The position numbers and the translations under genes were made by a program. This document shows positions 5,191 through 15,009 of a DNA stretch of 42,742 nt, in pieces (positions within the stretch are counted from its first letter, which is position 1; each line of letters starts with the position of its first letter). The notes beneath the pieces are model-generated. The model made no database searches and had not been told where the DNA came from. It saw only the letters and a list, made by a program, of their open reading frames with translations. Source of the DNA: Gemmatimonadota bacterium (GTDB taxonomy: Bacteria > Gemmatimonadota > Gemmatimonadetes > Longimicrobiales > RSA9); assembly GCA_007126035.1 (NCBI GenBank), contig SLCC01000176.1, positions 1 through 42,742 on the forward strand, in the 5' to 3' direction.

Positions 5191-5850
5191 CTACGCTTCC
5201 GAGACCACTCGTTCGAGCCAGGCCACGGCGTCCCTTATCTCATCCGGGGATATGGCGTGGCCGATGGGGTAGTCGCGCGCTTCCAGGTCGGCGCCCGCGT
5301 CGACCAGTGAGCCGCGGCCTCGTCGGGCCAGCTGGTGGGGGATGGCCGGGTCGTGGAGGCCATGGCCCCAGAAGAAGGAGGTGCCACGTACGTTGGCCGG
5401 GGTGACCGATACGTCCGGGTGACGGGGCAGGAATCCGCTGAAGTTGAGCACTCCTGCCACGCTGCCCGGCCGGCGCAGGGCCCAGCCCATGCTCATGGTT
5501 CCGCCCTGGGAGAACCCGCCCAGGACGACCGGTCCAGGCTGGTAGCCCAGGCGGGTGGGCAGGTCGTCGAGGATACCGTCCACTATCTTCTGCGCGGACC
5601 GGAACGTCTCCACCCCGGGCCGGTCATCGCCCTCGTAGCGGTACCAGGCCCGGCCGGGACCGTAACCCCACTCGGCAGCCGCGAACGGGGCCTTCGGCAG
5701 GATCAATGTGTAACCGTCGGGCAACCACCTCCGCAGGCTGACCAGGTCGGACGGGTCTGCGCCCCGCCCGTGCATCAGGATCACCACGGGTGCGCCATCG
5801 GTCACATGCGCCGGGTCCAGGACCCGCGCCTCGGCATGTCCAGTCGTCAT
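5191..5850 (-). CDS. phospholipase/carboxylesterase family alpha/beta hydrolase
   Basis: A compact 219-residue alpha/beta hydrolase of the Abhydrolase_2 (carboxylesterase) type. The nucleophile elbow is GGFSQGG with S114. The acid is D167 (HGLHDPAIP) and the base H198 (YPIGHAIS), giving a complete triad. An HGRGADPSDL segment near residue 27 forms the oxyanion region. There is no signal peptide, so it is probably cytoplasmic and acts on acyl esters; the natural substrate is unknown. Its ATG overlaps the stop of the L,D-transpeptidase gene as ATGA, which implies translational coupling. Confidence 0.85.
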   Translation of the reverse strand: MTTGHAEARVLDPAHVTDGAPVVILMHGRGADPSDLVSLRRWLPDGYTLILPKAPFAAAEWGYGPGRAWYRYEGDDRPGVETFRSAQKIVDGILDDLPTRLGYQPGPVVLGGFSQGGTMSMGWALRRPGSVAGVLNFSGFLPRHPDVSVTPANVRGTSFFWGHGLHDPAIPHQLARRGRGSLVDAGADLEARDYPIGHAISPDEIRDAVAWLERVVSEA

Positions 5851-7151
5851 CGATCTGCTCCTTCATGCCACCCTCCGCGCCCACCGGCTCCGCCCTCGTC
5901 GACGGCCCGGTCTCCGTCGACGTGAAGGAATTCGACCACGGTCCCTTCAGGGACGCGGCGACCGAGGAACGCCGCGTCCCAGTTGGTCAAGCGCACGCAG
6001 CCCGCGGACGTGGCGTATCCTATGGTTTCCGGGGCCCGCGTACCGTGGATACCGTAATGCGGCTTGGATAGTGCCATCCAGACCACGCCCACATCGTTGT
6101 TGGGGCCGGCGGGGATGATGGCGTCCTCGTCGTCCGGGTCAACGTCGGGGAGCAGGTCTGGCTGGTAGTGCCACTCGGGGTGGAAGGTGACGGACTCCAC
6201 CACGTGCTCGCCTTCCGGCGACGGCGAATAGTCGGTGCCCAGGGTGGAAGGGAAGTGGTACAGGATGTTCCCTGCCCCGTCCAGCGCATGGAGGTAGTGA
6301 CCGCCCACGGAGATCCGGATCCGCCGCACGTCGTTGTCGGCGCTGTGGGCGCCCTCGGGAAGATCGTCCAGGTGGAAGCGCTGCACTGCCGGGACATAGA
6401 GCATCTCACCGGCGGCCACCACGTTCAGGTCCACGCCCGGGTTCAACTGCTCGAGGAGCTCCGGTGAGCTGTGGAACACTTCACCCAGCTTCTCACGGAG
6501 GGACTCGTAGCACAGGCAGTCCAGCTCGGCCCGCTCGTAGATGTCGTCCGGGACGGAGACGAATGGACCGGCCACGTCACGATCGGTGAGCCGGTGGTGC
6601 CGTACCTGCTCGGCGCCCCCGCGGCGCATGAGGGTGTCCAAAGTGGCCCGGTCCACCTCCCCGGTGGCGGGCAGATCGTTGGTCTGCTGGAACCAGTAGA
6701 CCGCCTTCTCCGTATTCTTGCCCCAGAACCCGTCGATGATCCCCGGTGAGAAGCGGGCCTGGTTCAGGAGGATCTGTATCTTCGCCACCGACGGCCCCTG
6801 CACATCCCCGGACAGGGGCAGCGCCGGCTCGGCGTTGATCCGTTCCCCACTGATCTCATCCCACGATTCGTCGTCGGCTGCGTTTGCGGGCCGGCGGCGG
6901 TCCGCCGGTGACCCTTCACCGTCCCGGTCGACCCACCGTCGCCAGGAATCGTCGAGCCGACCGGCCTCCAGCTCCTCGGGAGACAGCTCGGCCCGGCCGC
7001 TGGCGATGGCTGTGGCCAGGTCCTCCCGCTCCTGAGCCGTTAGCGCGGGCTCAGCGGTGGCATCGGGCGGCGCGTCGCGGTCGCCCGGCTCACAGGCCAT
7101 GGTCCAGAAAACGCTCGCCACGACGAGCATCCACGCTCTGGTCATCTTCAC
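5847..7151 (-). CDS. L,D-transpeptidase (YkuD) with peptidoglycan-binding domain
   Basis: A 434-residue exported protein. The N-terminus is hydrophobic (about 5-18) and followed by Cys20, a possible but non-ideal lipobox (TMAC). Next come an acidic low-complexity region, a peptidoglycan-binding domain (about 125-185, with IQILLNQARFSPGIIDGFWG), a LysM-like segment (about 205-255), and a YkuD catalytic domain (about 265-415). The catalytic signature is intact: H369 in YGIHGTRAPETIG and C385 in TSAGCVRLTNWD, 16 residues apart. It should form 3-3 cross-links or attach proteins to peptidoglycan in the periplasm. The start is GTG at 7151, or ATG at 7145; the GTG touches the end of a 9-bp hairpin that may control translation. 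Confidence 0.9.
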   Translation of the reverse strand: MKMTRAWMLVVASVFWTMACEPGDRDAPPDATAEPALTAQEREDLATAIASGRAELSPEELEAGRLDDSWRRWVDRDGEGSPADRRRPANAADDESWDEISGERINAEPALPLSGDVQGPSVAKIQILLNQARFSPGIIDGFWGKNTEKAVYWFQQTNDLPATGEVDRATLDTLMRRGGAEQVRHHRLTDRDVAGPFVSVPDDIYERAELDCLCYESLREKLGEVFHSSPELLEQLNPGVDLNVVAAGEMLYVPAVQRFHLDDLPEGAHSADNDVRRIRISVGGHYLHALDGAGNILYHFPSTLGTDYSPSPEGEHVVESVTFHPEWHYQPDLLPDVDPDDEDAIIPAGPNNDVGVVWMALSKPHYGIHGTRAPETIGYATSAGCVRLTNWDAAFLGRRVPEGTVVEFLHVDGDRAVDEGGAGGRGGWHEGADR

Positions 7152-7178
7152 GTCCCGTCGAAGTGATCAACGGGACGT
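7150..7178 (-). promoter_or_regulatory. inverted repeat at the L,D-transpeptidase start
   Basis: A perfect 9-bp inverted repeat (ACGTCCCGT at 7150-7158, ACGGGACGT at 7170-7178) with an 11-nt loop ends at the GTG start of the transpeptidase gene. In RNA it would lock the initiation region; in DNA it could be an operator. A second, 6-bp stem (7180-7185 with 7191-7196) lies next to it. There is no U-tract, so a simple terminator for the S41 gene is less likely. Confidence 0.4.
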
Positions 7179-7215
7179 AACGGGCGCAATGCCCGTGCCC
7201 GATCGCTGCCGCCGA

Positions 7216-8796
7216 CTACCTGTCCTGGGCGATGCTGGACACGTACAGGAGCAAGCCGTCCTGCTCGAGCCCGCCTTCCCGGATGACCTCCAGGCCGCGG
7301 AGCAGGGGGCGATCGTGGCCCAGGTCCCGGATCATGGCGTAGGCCTCACCGAAGGCCATGCGCCCGATGCGGTCCGCCAGGATACGGTCCACGTACCGGG
7401 AGCCGGCGTCGTAGATCTCACGGTCCAGCCCCACGCCCTCCTCTGCGAGCCGGCTGTAGACCTCGTCGCGCCACTCCTGGGTGACGACGAAGCCGCGCTC
7501 CACCTGGTCCTTCAACTCAGTGGCGTAGTCGGAGATCAGGGTGTGGAACTCCGGCGAATACGGCAGGAGCGCCCTGACCAGGGCCTCGGCAGCCTCGTCC
7601 AGCCGCACAGGCTCCACCGCCAGGTCAGGCGTGATGCCGCCGCCGCCATAGACCAGGCGGCCTCCCACGGATCGGTAAGTCGGCCGATCGTCGCGACCGG
7701 TGGCGAAGTGGACGGAGTCGTCCACCTCCACCAGTCGTCCCGCGAGCATGGTCCGCTCCCGGTGGATGCTCCGCCCGCTGGGCGTGTACCACTTCCCGGT
7801 GGTCAGCTTCAGGACGTAGTCGCCCTCGACCCTGTACGCGGTCTGGACCAGTCCCTTCCCGAAGGAGGTGCTGCCCACCACCACCGCCCGGTCGTGGTCC
7901 TGAAGCGCACCCGCCACGATCTCCGCCGCCGAGGCAGAGGCCCCATCCACGAGCACGACCACCGGCAGGTCAGGGGCCAGGGGCTGCCGCTCGTTGACGT
8001 ACCGGATGTCCTCGCCGCCCCGTTCCCACTGCCGGGCCACGGGCGCACCCAGTGGCAGGAACAAGCCTGCTATACGCACCGCCTGGTCCAGCATGCCGCC
8101 GCTGTTGCCGCGCAGGTCCAGGATCACCGAAGTGGCTCCGCTCGCCGACAGCTCCCCCAGGGCCGCTGTCACCTCGGCGGCGGCGGTCTCGTTGAACTGG
8201 AGCAGTGGGATGTAGCCCACATTGTCGGTGATCGGCGTGGAGAAGGGGACGGCAGGGATCCGCACCACCGCCCTGGTCATCCGCACCATGATGGGTTGAG
8301 GCACGCCGTGGCGCCGGAACCGGACCTCCACGATGCTGCCGGGCCTTCCCTTGAGCGTGTTGGCCACCCGCTCCAGAGGCCAGCCCTCCACCGGGTCGCC
8401 ATCGATGGTCAGGACCCGATCGCCCTCTGCGACGCCGCGGCGCTCGGCCGGTGTGTTGGGGAAGACGCGCCTCACCACGGGCAGGCCCTGGTGCGACTCG
8501 ATCATCATGCCTACCCCGCCGTAGTGGCCCTCGTAGGTGGCGGTGAAATCCTCCATGTCCTCGGGGCTGTAGAGCTCGGCGTACGGGTCGCCGAGCTGGG
8601 AGACCAGACCCTCCGCGGCACGCTCGTAGACCGCCGATATGTCCAGGGAGTCGATGTAGCGGGTGGAGATGATGGTCACCACATCCCGGAACAGCCCAGG
8701 CCCCGACATGGTCGCCCGGTCCGGCAGGATGAACCCGCCCATTACGAAGGTGATCGCCAGTGCGGCCGCGAAACCTGCCCTGCGCGCGTTGTGCAT
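7216..8796 (-). CDS. S41 C-terminal processing protease with PDZ domain
   Basis: A 526-residue protease of the CtpA/Prc family. An N-terminal membrane anchor or uncleaved signal (about 8-26) is followed by a helical segment, a PDZ domain (about 90-175, with GVGMMIESHQGLPVVRRV and the NTPAERRGVAEGD turn), and the S41 core. The Ser-Lys dyad is intact: S289 in VDGASASAAEI and K314 in GSTSFGKGLVQT, 25 residues apart as expected. The C-terminal 150 residues are helical. In known systems such proteases act in the periplasm on peptidoglycan enzymes or on proteins with exposed C-termini. Here it lies directly upstream of an L,D-transpeptidase and a DUF1460 hydrolase, which makes cell-wall enzymes good candidate substrates. 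Confidence 0.92.
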   Translation of the reverse strand: MHNARRAGFAAALAITFVMGGFILPDRATMSGPGLFRDVVTIISTRYIDSLDISAVYERAAEGLVSQLGDPYAELYSPEDMEDFTATYEGHYGGVGMMIESHQGLPVVRRVFPNTPAERRGVAEGDRVLTIDGDPVEGWPLERVANTLKGRPGSIVEVRFRRHGVPQPIMVRMTRAVVRIPAVPFSTPITDNVGYIPLLQFNETAAAEVTAALGELSASGATSVILDLRGNSGGMLDQAVRIAGLFLPLGAPVARQWERGGEDIRYVNERQPLAPDLPVVVLVDGASASAAEIVAGALQDHDRAVVVGSTSFGKGLVQTAYRVEGDYVLKLTTGKWYTPSGRSIHRERTMLAGRLVEVDDSVHFATGRDDRPTYRSVGGRLVYGGGGITPDLAVEPVRLDEAAEALVRALLPYSPEFHTLISDYATELKDQVERGFVVTQEWRDEVYSRLAEEGVGLDREIYDAGSRYVDRILADRIGRMAFGEAYAMIRDLGHDRPLLRGLEVIREGGLEQDGLLLYVSSIAQDR

Positions 8797-8883: not shown

Positions 8884-9930
8884 CTAGTCCAGCGTGGCCA
8901 GCTCGATGTTGCGGATGTGCTCGCCGTACTGGCGCTTGTAGAAGACCTTGCGCTCGACGGCGTCGATCACGGGCGTGCCGAAGTCGCGGCCCTGGAGCCG
9001 GCCGGCGCTGTTCAGGCCACCGGCGCTGATGGTGTTGATCTCCACCAGCTTGTCACCGACGATGTCGAGGCCGGCGAAGAAGATGCCATCCTTGATCAGC
9101 TTGGGCCCCACGATGGCGGCAAGGCGGAGCATCTGGTCATCGACGTCTGGGACCTCCGGCCGACCGCCAGCAGTCATGTTGCTGCGGAAGTCGCCCTCAC
9201 CGACCAGCCGCTTGATGGCGGCGTACTTGCCGTCCACCTCCAGGGCCTTCCCGTTCACCATGAAAAGGCGGGTATCACCTTCCAGGGCGGCGGGCAGGAA
9301 CTCCTGGGCCACTATGTAGCCACCGCGGCTCACCGTCTCCACTATCTGGCGCATGTTGCTGGCGTCCTCGCCCACCAGAAAGACATCAGAGCCGCCATAG
9401 CCACTGAGGGGCTTGACCACGATGCGCCGGCCGTGGGCTTCGTGGAACTCACGGATGCGGTCGTAGCTGCGGGTGACGATCGCCCTGGGCCGGACATCCT
9501 CGGGGAACTGCTGGAAATACATCTTGTCGATGGCCCAGGAGAGGCTGTACGGGTGGTTCAGCACGACCACGCCGTGCTCCAGGGCCGCCTGGCCGAAGAG
9601 GATGCCGGCGTGCTGCGCCCACGCGTTCTCGTGGACCTCTTCCGATGGGTTGTAACGGAGCCAGATGACGTCCAGGTCGTCGGTCGATATGACGCGGCGG
9701 GGTGCCTCCCGGCCCTGGACCGCCTGGAGGAACCCGTGCTGGGACTCCACCTCGGCGCCGGGACCGGCCCGGGCGGTGGCGCCCACCCTGCCGTCCTCGA
9801 AGTACTCCAGCTCCCGGACGCCCGCCATGAAGACGTCGTGGCCCCGGCGGCATGCCGCGGTGGCGATGACAGTGGTGGCGGCCGTTGGGACCTCGGTGTC
9901 CACGTTGTTGACGACGAGCAGAATGCGCAT
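8884..9930 (-). CDS. GshB-like ATP-grasp ligase coupled to DUF1704 peptidase
   Basis: A 348-residue ATP-grasp enzyme resembling prokaryotic glutathione synthase. The N-terminal Rossmann-like domain starts MRILLVVNNVDTEVPT. The ATP-binding part contains RIVVKPLSGYGGSDVFLV, the RLFMVNGK strand, and the metal/ATP motif GLDIVGDKLVEINTISAGG near residue 295, comparable to the DVIG...EIN segment of GshB. It should form an amide bond using ATP; the substrates are unknown. There is no gamma-glutamylcysteine ligase nearby, which argues against plain glutathione synthesis. I place the start at the ATG at 9930: one base separates it from the stop of the DUF1704 gene (TGACATG) and there is no separate ribosome site, so the two are translationally coupled. 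Confidence 0.8.
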   Translation of the reverse strand: MRILLVVNNVDTEVPTAATTVIATAACRRGHDVFMAGVRELEYFEDGRVGATARAGPGAEVESQHGFLQAVQGREAPRRVISTDDLDVIWLRYNPSEEVHENAWAQHAGILFGQAALEHGVVVLNHPYSLSWAIDKMYFQQFPEDVRPRAIVTRSYDRIREFHEAHGRRIVVKPLSGYGGSDVFLVGEDASNMRQIVETVSRGGYIVAQEFLPAALEGDTRLFMVNGKALEVDGKYAAIKRLVGEGDFRSNMTAGGRPEVPDVDDQMLRLAAIVGPKLIKDGIFFAGLDIVGDKLVEINTISAGGLNSAGRLQGRDFGTPVIDAVERKVFYKRQYGEHIRNIELATLD

Positions 9931-9931
9931 G

Positions 9932-11767
9932 TCAGGCGGTGCCCAGGGGCGAGGAGACCATGGCGTGCAGGGGCAGCCCATCCCTGATGGCGGCCAGACG
10001 GTCCCGGGCTTCCGGCCGGTCCATGAACCTGGGCATGAGGGGCGTGGGCCGCAGGACGCCTCGTTCCCGGAATTCCTGCATCACGTCCAGGTGGCGGGCG
10101 GCGATCTTGCCCACGTACATGGGCTCCAGGTCGCCGCCGTCGCGGATGTGCTCGACCACGCCGAGCAGCCCCCGCAGGTAGATCATGTCACGGGTGAAGC
10201 CGCCGGACTCGTGGGCCCGGGTAGCGATACCGAACGCGGTGTACGCGTCGAAATCGTGCTCCCGGTGGAGCTGCCGGAACGTCTCGACGAACTCGGCGCC
10301 CTCCATCACGCCGTGGACCGCCAAGACCCGTCCGGCCAGCAGCCGCACCCGGTGCGCGTCCAGCCCGCCCACCAGGTACTCGGCCAGCACACCCAGCCCC
10401 TCCTGTAGCTCGTCGTAGGACGCGAAGCCGCGCGACAGCTGGAGGAACGGCTGGGCTGCGCCATTGACGAAGGTGAGGACGTGGGTGCCCACCTCGTGCT
10501 GGATCATCGCCTCCACCCTCTCCGGGGCCAGGGCCAGACCTTCCCCGATCAGCAGTTTGCCGGACGAGACCATGAGGCCCACCAGGTCGGGGCGGATCTG
10601 TGACTCGGAGCTGAAGGCCGGGTACTGGCGCCGGTAGTGCTCGAACTCCTCCTCCGCACGCGCAGCGAAGTCCCGGGCCCCCACCCGCGGACCGCGATCC
10701 GACGCCGCCGGGACCGGGATCTCCGCCAGGACCTCCAGCGCCCGTTCCAGGAGACCGGCCCGCAGATGGCCGAAAAGCCGGATGCTGCCCTGGAGGAAGC
10801 CCGGCGAATTGCGGTCGGCGAGCAGGGTGATCTGCCGGTCCAGCTCCTCCCGCTTGTCCCGCAGCAGCCGCCACGAGGCCGGATCCTCCACGTCCTCGAG
10901 ACGGACTGCGTACAGCCGCCGCTTCAGCAGGTCCGGGTCCATGGGCAGGAGACGGTAGCGGAAGTCCGGCGCCCGCTCGTAGCCGCTGTCCCGGAACCGC
11001 TCCCACGCCGCGTCGGCGTTCACGGGAGAGACCAGGAGCAGGGAGTCGAACGAGCCGTCGATGGCCGCCAGCTCACGGTCCGCCTCCCAGACGGCGTCGC
11101 CCAGGGTGCGCCGGCCCAGGGCTCGATAGCTGGCCAGCTCGGTGCCCGACTGGACCTTGACGAATTCGAACAGGGCGCGACGCAGCACCTCGGAGAGACC
11201 GTGGGCCAGACTCCGCAGGAAGACCGGGTACACGTCGCCCGTCTCCGGGTCCCGGTAGCTGCTGGGCACCTCCAGCCCAAGCAGCAGGCAACCCAGCCGG
11301 TGACTCTCGGAGATCGTCAGGAGCGGCTCGCTCTCCGGAGGGTGACGACGCTCGCCCACCTCCAGGTCGACGCGTGCGCCACGTCGCTTCACCTCCAGGG
11401 CCGAGAGCCCCTCCATAAGAGCAGTGACCGTTGCCTTGCCGGGACCGTCCGGGGCCAGGACCCGGAATCGGCTGTCGCCGCTCCAGAGCTCCACCACCAG
11501 GAACGCGCCGTGCTCCCGCGACCCGGCCTCCACCACCGAGCGGACCACGGCTCTGACCCGATCAGGGTCGGCCTCCGGGTTCACAGCCAGGTAGGAGGCC
11601 TCACCCCGCACCAGGTGCGACAACGGATCATCAGGCTCTCGCTCCCGCACCACCAGGAGGAAGGGTCGGGCGGCGTCCAGGACCAGCGTGCCCCAGGACA
11701 GCTCCTCGTCCAGGGACTGACCGCGGGCGAAAGCCTCTGCAACCTCCGCAGCCGGCACCGGAGTCAA
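9932..11767 (-). CDS. DUF1704 (QEGLA-motif) zinc peptidase, MATCAP-like
   Basis: A 611-residue protein. The C-terminal half is a DUF1704 domain, the family annotated as flavohemoglobin expression-modulating QEGLA-motif proteins and later found in the eukaryotic MATCAP tyrosine carboxypeptidases. The zinc site is intact: H424-E-x-x-x-H429 (HEVGTH), with the third ligand E456 in the signature motif, here QEGLG. The N-terminal 330 residues are less conserved and include a possible regulatory domain. It probably removes a C-terminal residue from a peptide or protein in the cytoplasm (inference from MATCAP). The start is TTG at 11767, overlapping the upstream stop as TTGA; the ligase gene follows after one base. 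Its bacterial substrate is not known. Confidence 0.85.
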   Translation of the reverse strand: MTPVPAAEVAEAFARGQSLDEELSWGTLVLDAARPFLLVVREREPDDPLSHLVRGEASYLAVNPEADPDRVRAVVRSVVEAGSREHGAFLVVELWSGDSRFRVLAPDGPGKATVTALMEGLSALEVKRRGARVDLEVGERRHPPESEPLLTISESHRLGCLLLGLEVPSSYRDPETGDVYPVFLRSLAHGLSEVLRRALFEFVKVQSGTELASYRALGRRTLGDAVWEADRELAAIDGSFDSLLLVSPVNADAAWERFRDSGYERAPDFRYRLLPMDPDLLKRRLYAVRLEDVEDPASWRLLRDKREELDRQITLLADRNSPGFLQGSIRLFGHLRAGLLERALEVLAEIPVPAASDRGPRVGARDFAARAEEEFEHYRRQYPAFSSESQIRPDLVGLMVSSGKLLIGEGLALAPERVEAMIQHEVGTHVLTFVNGAAQPFLQLSRGFASYDELQEGLGVLAEYLVGGLDAHRVRLLAGRVLAVHGVMEGAEFVETFRQLHREHDFDAYTAFGIATRAHESGGFTRDMIYLRGLLGVVEHIRDGGDLEPMYVGKIAARHLDVMQEFRERGVLRPTPLMPRFMDRPEARDRLAAIRDGLPLHAMVSSPLGTA

Positions 11768-12024
11768 TGGTGACGGAGGGCGTTGATGAGCTCGTCCTTG
11801 CTCATGTTCGACCGACCCTCGATCCCCACTTCTTTGGCCTTGTCGTAGAGGTCCTGCCTGCTCCAGTCCTCGTAGCGGCTCACCTTGCCACCCTTCCTGC
11901 CCGCCGACGAGCGGGACCCTACGTTGGCGATCCTCGCCGCCTTCTCCTTGCTCATCCCCTCACGTCGAAGCGCCTCGTACTGACGGTCATCCTTGACGCT
12001 GGGACCATGATCCTTCCGTGGCAT
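11764..12024 (-). CDS. small Rho-N/SAP-like basic protein
   Basis: An 86-residue, highly charged protein starting MPRKDHGPSVKDDRQYE. It has two parts: an N-terminal helical region with REGMSKEKAARIAN and a basic GRKGGK turn, and a C-terminal Rho-termination-factor-N-like segment (about 48-84: YEDWSRQDLYDKAKEVGI, then MSKDELINALRHH), a small helical module that can bind nucleic acid or mediate contacts. The start at 12024 is favoured over an upstream in-frame ATG because GGAGGAG lies 4-5 bases before it. The stop overlaps the TTG start of the DUF1704 gene by four bases. Similar small proteins are usually annotated as stress or plasmid-stabilisation-like; their function is unknown. Confidence 0.75.
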   Translation of the reverse strand: MPRKDHGPSVKDDRQYEALRREGMSKEKAARIANVGSRSSAGRKGGKVSRYEDWSRQDLYDKAKEVGIEGRSNMSKDELINALRHH

Positions 12025-12128
12025 GTGCTCCTCCTGGCTTCCTCCTCCTGACTTCCTCATCCTGGCTTCCAGCAGGTTGCCGGCTGACCGCAGGCGTTGT
12101 GGTGCAAAGCGTGTTCCGGCAGCCCGCG

Positions 12129-13273: not shown

Positions 13274-13494
13274 CGGTTCTGCCCTCCCGGGCGCGTTGCG
13301 GGGGCCCGATCCGTTCTGCGCCAGCCCCTCACCCGTACGCGTGTGGAAGACGCAATCGGGATGCCATGTGGGGCGGAATGTCATACCTTGTCACGCTGGG
13401 CGTCACGGTCAGATGCCAGTCATGCGCGCACGGTTCGTGCGCCGGGCGGGCGGCGCCGGGAAGACGAGGAGCACGGGAGCAAAAGGATGAGGAT

Positions 13495-15009
13495 ATGGTT
13501 GAGCCAGAAAACCCACATCGAAACGGGACCATGAGCGGGAACCTCGTGGAGATCCCGCCTCGCCCGTCGCTGACGGAGTACGAAGCGATCGCGCACCTTG
13601 CCCCTGCGGCCGAGGCGCTCCGGGCCCACGCCCGGGAGGTGGCGCCGCGGCTGGAGGGTCGCACGGTGTGGATGGTCAATTCCACAGCCCAGGGCGGGGG
13701 TGTGGCGGAGATGCTACCCACCATGGTCACGTTGCTGAACGAGCTGGGCGTGGACACGCGCTGGTTCGTGATCGAGAGCGATGAGGAGGCGTTCTTCCGG
13801 TTGACCAAGCGGATCCACAACCTGATCCACGGCGCGGGCGATCCGCTGATCGACGCTTCGGAGGAGCGGGCCACCTACGAGGAGGTCAACCGGGACAACG
13901 CCCGGACCCTGGGCCTCCTGCTTCGTGACGGCGACGTCCTGGTGGTGCACGATCCCCAGCCCATGCCTCTGGCGGGCTTCCTCCGCGAGCATTGCGACAT
14001 CCACACCGTCTGGCGGTGCCATATCGGGCTGGACGAGGAAAACGAGGCGACGCGCTCGGTATGGGACTTCCTCCAGCCTTACGCCCCGGATTACGAGCGG
14101 AGCGTATTCTCTGCTCCGGAGTATGTCCCGTCCTACTTCCAGGACCGGGCCCAGCTCATCTACCCGGCCATCGATCCGCTATCCAGGAAGAACCGTGAGC
14201 TGCACATCCATTCGCTCGTGGGCATCCTGGCCAACTCGGCGCTGACGGTGGTCCCGGGGCCGGTGGTCCAGCCGCCATACCAGCACGTTGCGCAGCGGCT
14301 CCAGGTGGACGGTAACTGGTCGCCCGCGGTGCTGCCGGCGGATATCGGCCTGTTGATCCGGCCCATCGTCACCCAGATCTCGCGCTGGGACCGGCTCAAG
14401 GGCTGGCTGCCGCTCATGGAAGGGTTCGTACAGCTGAAGGAGCGGCTGTACACCACGTACCGCTCCCGTCCGGCGCTCGAGCGTCGGCGCCTGGCTCAGG
14501 CTCGACTGGTGATGGCGGGTCCGGATCCCGCCTCGATCTCCGACGACCCGGAGGGGCTGGAGGTGATCGAGGAGCTGCGGGCCGCCTACGTGGCCCTGGA
14601 CGACGAGTTCAAGCACGACATAGCCATGATCGCGCTACCTATGCAGGACCCGGAGGCGAACGCCCTCATGGTGAACGCGATCCAGCGAGCGTCCACGGTG
14701 GTGGTCCAGAATTCGATCCGTGAAGGGTTCGGTCTCACGGTGACGGAAGCCATGTGGAAGCGGATCCCGGTGCTGAGCAACACCCGGGCGGTGGGCCCGC
14801 GGCAGCAGATGGTGCACGCCTGCGACGGCTGGTTGATAGACGATCCAGAGAGCCCGACACAGATAGCCGACGCCCTGGACTACCTGCTCAACGAGTCCCG
14901 TGAGCGGGCGGCCCTGGCCCGGACGGCCCAGAGGCGCGCCCACGACAATTTCATGACGTTCAGCCAGCTCCGGAGCTGGCTCGGTCTGCTCGAGGAGATC
15001 GTGACGTAG
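13495..15009 (+). CDS. treT: TreT-like trehalose synthase, GT4 family
   Basis: A 504-residue glycosyltransferase whose motifs closely follow archaeal TreT (trehalose from NDP-glucose and glucose): VNSTAQGGGVAEML, VVHDPQPMPLAGF, WRCHIGLD, IDPLSRKN, TQISRWDRLKGW, and the GT4 signature SIREGFGLTVTEAMWK with the catalytic glutamates. It is about 90 residues longer than archaeal TreT. One insert lies between SRKN and TQISRW (about residues 230-290), and another after the KGW motif. The enzyme is cytoplasmic; trehalose would serve as a compatible solute or carbon store. The start at 13495 has AAAGGA seven bases upstream; another ATG lies at 13531. Its final 50 bases overlap the 3' end of plsY on the other strand. 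Confidence 0.85.
   Translation: MVEPENPHRNGTMSGNLVEIPPRPSLTEYEAIAHLAPAAEALRAHAREVAPRLEGRTVWMVNSTAQGGGVAEMLPTMVTLLNELGVDTRWFVIESDEEAFFRLTKRIHNLIHGAGDPLIDASEERATYEEVNRDNARTLGLLLRDGDVLVVHDPQPMPLAGFLREHCDIHTVWRCHIGLDEENEATRSVWDFLQPYAPDYERSVFSAPEYVPSYFQDRAQLIYPAIDPLSRKNRELHIHSLVGILANSALTVVPGPVVQPPYQHVAQRLQVDGNWSPAVLPADIGLLIRPIVTQISRWDRLKGWLPLMEGFVQLKERLYTTYRSRPALERRRLAQARLVMAGPDPASISDDPEGLEVIEELRAAYVALDDEFKHDIAMIALPMQDPEANALMVNAIQRASTVVVQNSIREGFGLTVTEAMWKRIPVLSNTRAVGPRQQMVHACDGWLIDDPESPTQIADALDYLLNESRERAALARTAQRRAHDNFMTFSQLRSWLGLLEEIVT

Follow-up and report, generated by a model that had tools for sequence, protein, structure and literature searches.

MATCAP-family peptidases trim tubulin in animals, and the bacterial ligase–protease pair RimK/RimB has ribosomal protein S6 as its target. 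One member of the former family, MATCAP1 (TMCP1), is a tubulin carboxypeptidase that uses Glu281 (E281) as the catalytic residue (PMC10499314, PMC13269789). Here we describe a stretch of Gemmatimonadota DNA of 42,742 nucleotides (contig SLCC01000176.1; hereafter the window), which encodes, side by side, a DUF1704/MATCAP-family zinc metallopeptidase and an ATP-grasp ligase resembling the glutathione synthase GshB. The two genes constitute a dedicated pair whose members are co-inherited and stay next to each other. We propose, at what we judge to be about even chances, that they form a module, spread by horizontal transfer, for making and trimming a molecule of peptide type, and that the substrate is small and probably a glutamate-type acyl-peptide. 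A literature search, outside which most subscription papers lay, returned no functional paper on the DUF1704/QEGLA family and none joining FGase (an enzyme of N-formylglutamate-amidohydrolase type), MATCAP and the ligase. The features of the pair are as follows (AF2, AlphaFold2 model).

8884-9930, minus strand: GshB-like ATP-grasp ligase of the PRK12458-type clade (348 amino acids; Pfam GSH-S_ATP, 4e-46; AF2 pLDDT 92.9)
9932-11767, minus strand: DUF1704/MATCAP-family zinc metallopeptidase, long form (611 amino acids, TTG start; Pfam MATCAP, 2e-75; AF2 pLDDT 93.5)
11093-11767, minus strand: N-terminal domain of the peptidase, residues 1-225, with an M14/FGase-like fold and no conserved metal site (hhalign, Foldseek)
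9986-11002, minus strand: MATCAP catalytic domain of the peptidase, residues 256-594 (Pfam)
10481-10498, minus strand: zinc motif HEVGTH, peptidase residues 424-429 (H424, E425 and H429 invariant in 43 relatives)
10400-10402, minus strand: candidate third zinc ligand, E456, in the QEGL motif of the peptidase (invariant in relatives)

The peptidase and ligase are inherited as a pair

The distribution of the two genes was surveyed in draws of 200 Gemmatimonadota and 395 Bacteroidota genomes, chosen without regard to similarity to the window; phylogenetic dependence is present in both draws, yet the genes are patchily distributed in each phylum. PF08014, the MATCAP domain, is present in seven Gemmatimonadota genomes, and the intact clade ligase (>380 bits with the ligase profile) occurs in the same seven and in 0 of the 193 others. 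The ligase lies directly downstream of the peptidase in 7/7, with one genome containing two ligases, while the next-best ligase matches in the phylum (≤ ~150 bits) are ordinary GshB-like proteins and one decayed copy. Nineteen Bacteroidota genomes contain PF08014, 11 of them as long forms (frames of 611-691 amino acids), and all 11 long forms adjoin a clade ligase (425-560 bits) that is found in none of the other 384 genomes. An intact clade ligase without the peptidase was therefore seen in 0 of the 595 sampled genomes. These data bear out the co-occurrence outside the window genome for which a preliminary description of this DNA had suggested a survey.

A similarity set, consisting of 80 loci fetched by an alignment query plus relatives and plasmids, displays the same arrangement; a single-sequence scan of contigs with the window peptidase had returned no match, whereas the alignment query did. 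The ligase is located downstream within 3 kb for 97 of the 103 peptidases tallied and within 100 base pairs (bp) for 89, and the two genes overlap or are separated by ≤10 bp in 50. Unpaired exceptions in this tally include stretch ends, a Planctomycetota locus (L063) and a solo form from Vibrio (L100), while one locus omitted by accident (G009) also contains the pair. Peptidase and ligase distances are correlated (Mantel r 0.81, 0/2000 permutations). The 80 loci span 13 phyla: Gemmatimonadota, Bacteroidota, Balneolota, Ignavibacteriota, Planctomycetota, Verrucomicrobiota, Acidobacteriota, Chloroflexota, Calditrichota, Nitrospirota, Poribacteria, Actinomycetota and Pseudomonadota.

A second arrangement is evident in the Bacteroidota, where 7/8 of the other peptidases have a different GshB-like ligase (ligase II) 1-2 kb upstream, in operons with the order symporter, ligase II, (rhodanese, small gene), FGase and short MATCAP. 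The association of MATCAP with a ligase therefore recurs, as a separate GshB-like clade pairs with the short MATCAP proteins. Both arrangements are present within one operon in G340/L134, and in total the MATCAP-family gene is adjoined by, or lies near, a GshB-like ligase in 18/19 of the Bacteroidota genomes that contain it. The symporter ahead of ligase II is of the Na+:dicarboxylate type (PF00375) in L127-L132, L134 and L080, a weak observation that may reflect shared synteny of related genomes.

The paired ligase is distinct from glutathione synthase

The ATP-grasp motifs noted in the ligase at the outset are genuine: K136, K173, R221, R241, R249, D289, E297 and N299 are intact and invariant among relatives, and the positions equivalent to the GshB catalytic residues are likewise invariant in the paired ligases. 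The model of the window ligase has as its best match in the PDB the GshB structure 1gsa (TM 0.81/0.89), followed by RimK and ArgX/LysX. In trees of 105 and 50 proteins, by contrast, the paired ligases form one clade (support 100) apart from canonical GshB (100); this separation has support 100/99, and ligase II forms a clade of its own, also at 100/99. The ligase thus groups outside the true glutathione synthases, a phylogenetic check that the preliminary description had proposed. The paired ligases also differ from GshB in that xSPGG takes the place of the TSPT(C/G) motif, and in carrying an insert with an invariant tryptophan (W104) and a C-terminal extension. The window ligase scores under the GshB equivalog cut-offs (190.8 against 272 for PRK05246, and 178.3 against 299 for TIGR01380) and, at 61 bits, under the cut-off of 143 for rimK_fam.

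That the ligase is simply the glutathione synthase of the organism, with the peptidase a chance or unrelated neighbour, is very improbable. Consistent with such a role, no other GshB was found in the window genome, which has two YbdK-type ligases (relatives of glutamate-cysteine ligase) elsewhere, and the nearest NCBI model, PRK12458, bears the name ‘glutathione synthetase'. The fully supported separate clade and the scores under the equivalog cut-offs, however, rule out plain GshB as the best reading, and among the 595 sampled genomes the intact clade ligase is confined to those with the peptidase. Rhizobia hold canonical GshB besides the clade ligase; in Sinorhizobium sp. K101 and Shinella sp. 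PSBB067 it is on another replicon (L106 and L107, compared with L112 and L113). Conversely, a true GshB with an adjoining GCS2 ligase exists without MATCAP (L136). In 12 genomes of the similarity set, mostly Bacteroidota, the only other GshB-like matches >100 bits were one tandem and one type II copy. The preliminary description had reached a similar view of GshB from gene context; the separate clade upholds that view, but the lack of glutathione genes nearby is by itself a weak argument for it, given the two YbdK-type ligases elsewhere and the lack of another GshB in the genome.

The peptidase combines a MATCAP catalytic domain with an FGase-like domain

The zinc site H424, E425, H429 and E456, described previously as intact, is correctly placed and invariant in 43 diverse relatives. 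The fold assigned to DUF1704 also holds, as the best PDB match of the peptidase model is human MATCAP (7z5g/7z6s; Foldseek E 3e-9, prob 1.00, TM 0.67 by target). From this fold the enzyme is predicted to remove a C-terminal residue. Human MATCAP scores alike against paired and solo bacterial forms (24-30 bits), and the window peptidase matches the full TIGR02421 model with 288.5 bits, under the cut-off of 338.65.

Residues 1-225 form a separate domain. Aligned by hhalign with the operonic FGase profile the domain reached 83% (E 8.7e-6), compared with <1% for reversed and unrelated controls, and Foldseek lists for it M14 carboxypeptidases and FGase 2q7s, with weak E of 0.004-0.05, as well as CCP5 and aspartoacylases, likewise with weak E. 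As no histidine in this domain is invariant among the 43 relatives, a metal site is not expected there, and the domain looks like a metal-less FGase remnant.

These structural similarities bring in a cycle of protein-tail editing, in which the ligase would add residues at a protein C-terminus or side chain and the peptidase, with FGase or AstE, would remove them. A protein tail is a possible substrate, since such tails are what relatives of MATCAP and RimK act on, and since RimK/RimB, a proven bacterial pair for adding and removing residues, shows that such cycles exist in bacteria (PMC11957791, PMC7343187). The match of the catalytic domain to human MATCAP is consistent with this explanation, as are the RimK and carrier-protein ligase (ArgX/LysX) structures that follow GshB among the matches of the ligase model, and the RimK gene that adjoins an AstE-type hydrolase in Vibrio europaeus. 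Furthermore, an ATP-grasp enzyme, a MATCAP enzyme and an M14-fold hydrolase constitute the same fold trio that is used on tubulin. Against tail editing, the ligase is closest in both sequence and fold to GshB, the maker of a small peptide, and overall we consider this explanation unlikely. A bolder version, in which the trio writes and erases residues on a protein or carrier as a bacterial C-terminal tail code, ancestral to the eukaryotic tubulin trio, is a long shot. The Vibrio europaeus genes (L111:252-1615) are on a plasmid, where a RimK-annotated ligase is immediately followed by a gene of the succinylglutamate desuccinylase/aspartoacylase family, a parallel ligase-hydrolase pair.

A third enzyme commonly accompanies the pair

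Of the first 86 loci, 60 encode FGase (PF05013) immediately ahead of the peptidase, as do 75 loci in a wider set and all the annotated rhizobial operons that were inspected. Nine Bacteroidota loci have an AstE/AspA-type deacylase in place of FGase, never alongside it. In G267/L133 there is a natural FGase-MATCAP fusion (L133:3136-5136) with intact presumed FGase metal residues (H, EE, DMHSYN) and a GshB-like ligase directly upstream, while in Vibrio L100 a recognisable FGase domain, in which the last metal-site His is replaced by Tyr, is fused to MATCAP. Fusion in one protein links the FGase and MATCAP activities. In the decayed copy in G156 (L118:4040-4877), FGase positions 9-94 run straight into ligase positions 177-347 and the peptidase is gone, suggesting that there the operon was lost as a unit.

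The third enzymes belong to families of small-molecule acyl-amino-acid hydrolases, which argues against tail editing. The preliminary description, which favoured a protein or peptide C-terminus, had overlooked these pointers; the conserved third enzyme and the metal-less FGase-like domain of the peptidase indicate a small acyl-amino-acid or peptide substrate at least as strongly as they indicate a protein tail.

Several operons (L030, L033, L034, L055, L067, L082, L084, L120 and L061) contain two to three ligases, and some up to three peptidases, from distinct subclades. Where tandem ligases in an operon come from different subclades, they suggest that ligation takes more than one step. Tandem operons that hold two subclades of ligase and two of peptidase would fit a one-way route of biosynthesis or salvage in which a protecting or carrier amino acid is put on by the ligase, the intermediate is then altered, and the peptidase later takes the amino acid off to free the product, so that the enzymes act sequentially rather than in opposition. 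The deacylase-type third gene is in keeping with this route, whose logic would resemble that of LysX/LysW or of the N-acetylglutaminylglutamine (NAGGN) operon, in which a peptidase accompanies an ATP-grasp enzyme. A conserved enzyme for the intervening step was, however, not found among the flanking genes, and we view the one-way route as rather improbable.

Gene organization in the window and the small neighbouring protein

The window pair is preceded by a third gene:

11764-12024, minus strand: small DUF7218/Rho_N protein, a neighbour rather than a conserved part of the module (Pfam, loci of relatives)

The open reading frame of the small protein spans 11764-12060, with a likely start at 12024 (MPRKDHG...) and a C-terminus ending in LRHH. 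Pfam scores are 72 bits for PF23855 DUF7218 and a weak 29 for PF07498 Rho_N; those of the pair are 254.5 for PF08014 MATCAP (cut-off 27) and 157 for PF02955 GSH-S_ATP. The peptidase TTG start overlaps the stop of the small gene (TTGA), and the peptidase and ligase genes are one base apart (TGAcATG). Both junctions are as first described, but the TTGA overlap is not kept in the nearest relative (G009/L012), in which the small gene stops ~95 bp ahead of the chosen peptidase start; the TTG start and the overlap are peculiar to the window genome, whereas close spacing of peptidase and ligase is conserved more broadly. The nearest named locus is 67% identical to that of the window.

It was suggested previously that the small protein is the substrate or recruiter of the pair, with conservation of its C-terminus as a check. 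Neither idea survives comparison with relatives. DUF7218 is present in 2/31 relatives, both at the window-type locus, whereas the peptidase is present in 7/31, and the small protein is thus missing from five of the seven relatives that carry the peptidase. It adjoins the pair in only one close relative, lies 4 kb away in one other locus, and its C-terminus varies (HH, NH or NQ). This patchy presence and variable terminus rule it out as a module partner; the small protein is a local neighbour. That no protein gene, this one included, is conserved with the module is a further point against tail editing.

After the ligase, on the same (minus) strand, are genes for an S41 C-terminal processing peptidase and an L,D-transpeptidase (5847-8796), an order kept in G009/L012. 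A trehalose-synthase-type glycosyltransferase (TreT) is encoded upstream of the cluster on the opposite strand (13366-15009, plus strand).

Flanking genes

The flanking genes of the loci provided no pointer to the substrate, since no single chemistry gene recurs among them. MscS channels and amino-acid/SLC12-like permeases recur at about ten loci each, and divalent-ion transporters in minor numbers, counts that have no background control. A Pseudoalteromonas solo form lies close to betaine genes, two plasmid operons are close to a Na+/H+ antiporter operon, and the family member in Photobacterium damselae was 27.5-fold up at low salinity (PMC10308900). Taken together these observations, which have no background control, hint at an ionic or osmotic role for the module.

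Separately, the window's own genome encodes elsewhere an acetyltransferase/ATP-grasp protein followed by a peptidase-like gene (L014:349-2184, C94). The former is presumably a synthetase of the osmolyte NAGGN.

Discussion

Amide bonds at the ends of amino acids or acidic peptides are made or broken by all of these enzymes, the ligase family as well as the three families of hydrolase. Small N-acyl-Glu/Asp compounds are substrates for the FGase, AstE and AspA families, and the product of GshB is a small peptide, which is why we favour a small N-acyl- or glutamate-type substrate. In the proposed module the substrate of the ligase would be small, most likely a peptide headed by an N-acyl group or by glutamate/aspartate, and the enzyme would couple an amino acid to its carboxyl end at the expense of ATP; the peptidase would take off the C-terminal residue; and the third enzyme, where present, would remove the N-acyl or first amino-acid unit. 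With synthesis and breakdown sharing one operon, the level of product could be set quickly. A Pfam scan revealed no FGase or AstE gene beside the window pair, and in this branch the third enzyme is not encoded next to the pair, the peptidase apparently retaining only a metal-less copy of the FGase fold.

Several observations weigh against the making and trimming of a small peptide. The Bacteroidota peptidase of G408/L135 is solo, with no neighbouring ligase, and some gammaproteobacterial peptidases also lack an adjoining ligase. The third step is not universal, as no FGase was found in the window genome, whose only AstE-family matches are weak and located elsewhere. The opposite directions of the ligase and peptidase reactions are predicted from fold alone, and the substrate and reaction from families and gene context; the direct add/remove cycle put forward in the preliminary description is similarly something that the pair may carry out. 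By analogy with MATCAP, RimK/RimB and CCP enzymes, which work on protein tails, the substrate could also be a protein.

The dedicated ligase, and often FGase, that almost always stands beside bacterial MATCAP relatives in the sampled Bacteroidota and Gemmatimonadota provides these proteins with a testable function. All three genes of the module are found together in laboratory rhizobia, for example Sinorhizobium meliloti (pSymB). In addition, glutathione may not be the product of many proteins that bear the label ‘glutathione synthase'.

Comparison with known systems

The module resembles four described systems, each in part. In the RimK/RimB (RimABK) system of Pseudomonas, a RimK-type ATP-grasp ligase and a co-transcribed protease likewise build and remove residues (PMC11957791, PMC7343187), but RimB is a retropepsin-like aspartic endopeptidase whereas the window peptidase belongs to a zinc metallopeptidase family, RimK is from another ATP-grasp family, and the substrate, RpsF, is known. 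The TIGR02421 family, from which NCBI takes the name ‘flavohemoglobin expression-modulating QEGLA motif protein' for the peptidase family, is covered over its full model by the window protein, which nevertheless falls under the cut-off; gammaproteobacterial members, unlike the window protein, have no adjoining ligase. GshB shares its fold and catalytic residues with the paired ligase, from which it is set apart by clade, by the xSPGG motif, W104 insert and C-terminal extension of the latter, and by the obligate peptidase neighbour. Relative to the three-gene FGase-MATCAP-ligase module, in the window the clade ligase comes directly after the long peptidase, but there is no FGase/AstE beside the pair. 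Finally, the TTL/MATCAP (TMCP)/CCP system also combines an ATP-grasp ligase, a MATCAP-family metallocarboxypeptidase with a common catalytic domain and an M14-fold hydrolase; the bacterial ligase, however, is GshB-like rather than TTL, the bacterial peptidase carries in addition an FGase-like domain at its N-terminus, and the bacterial genes, which operate without tubulin, are united in one operon.

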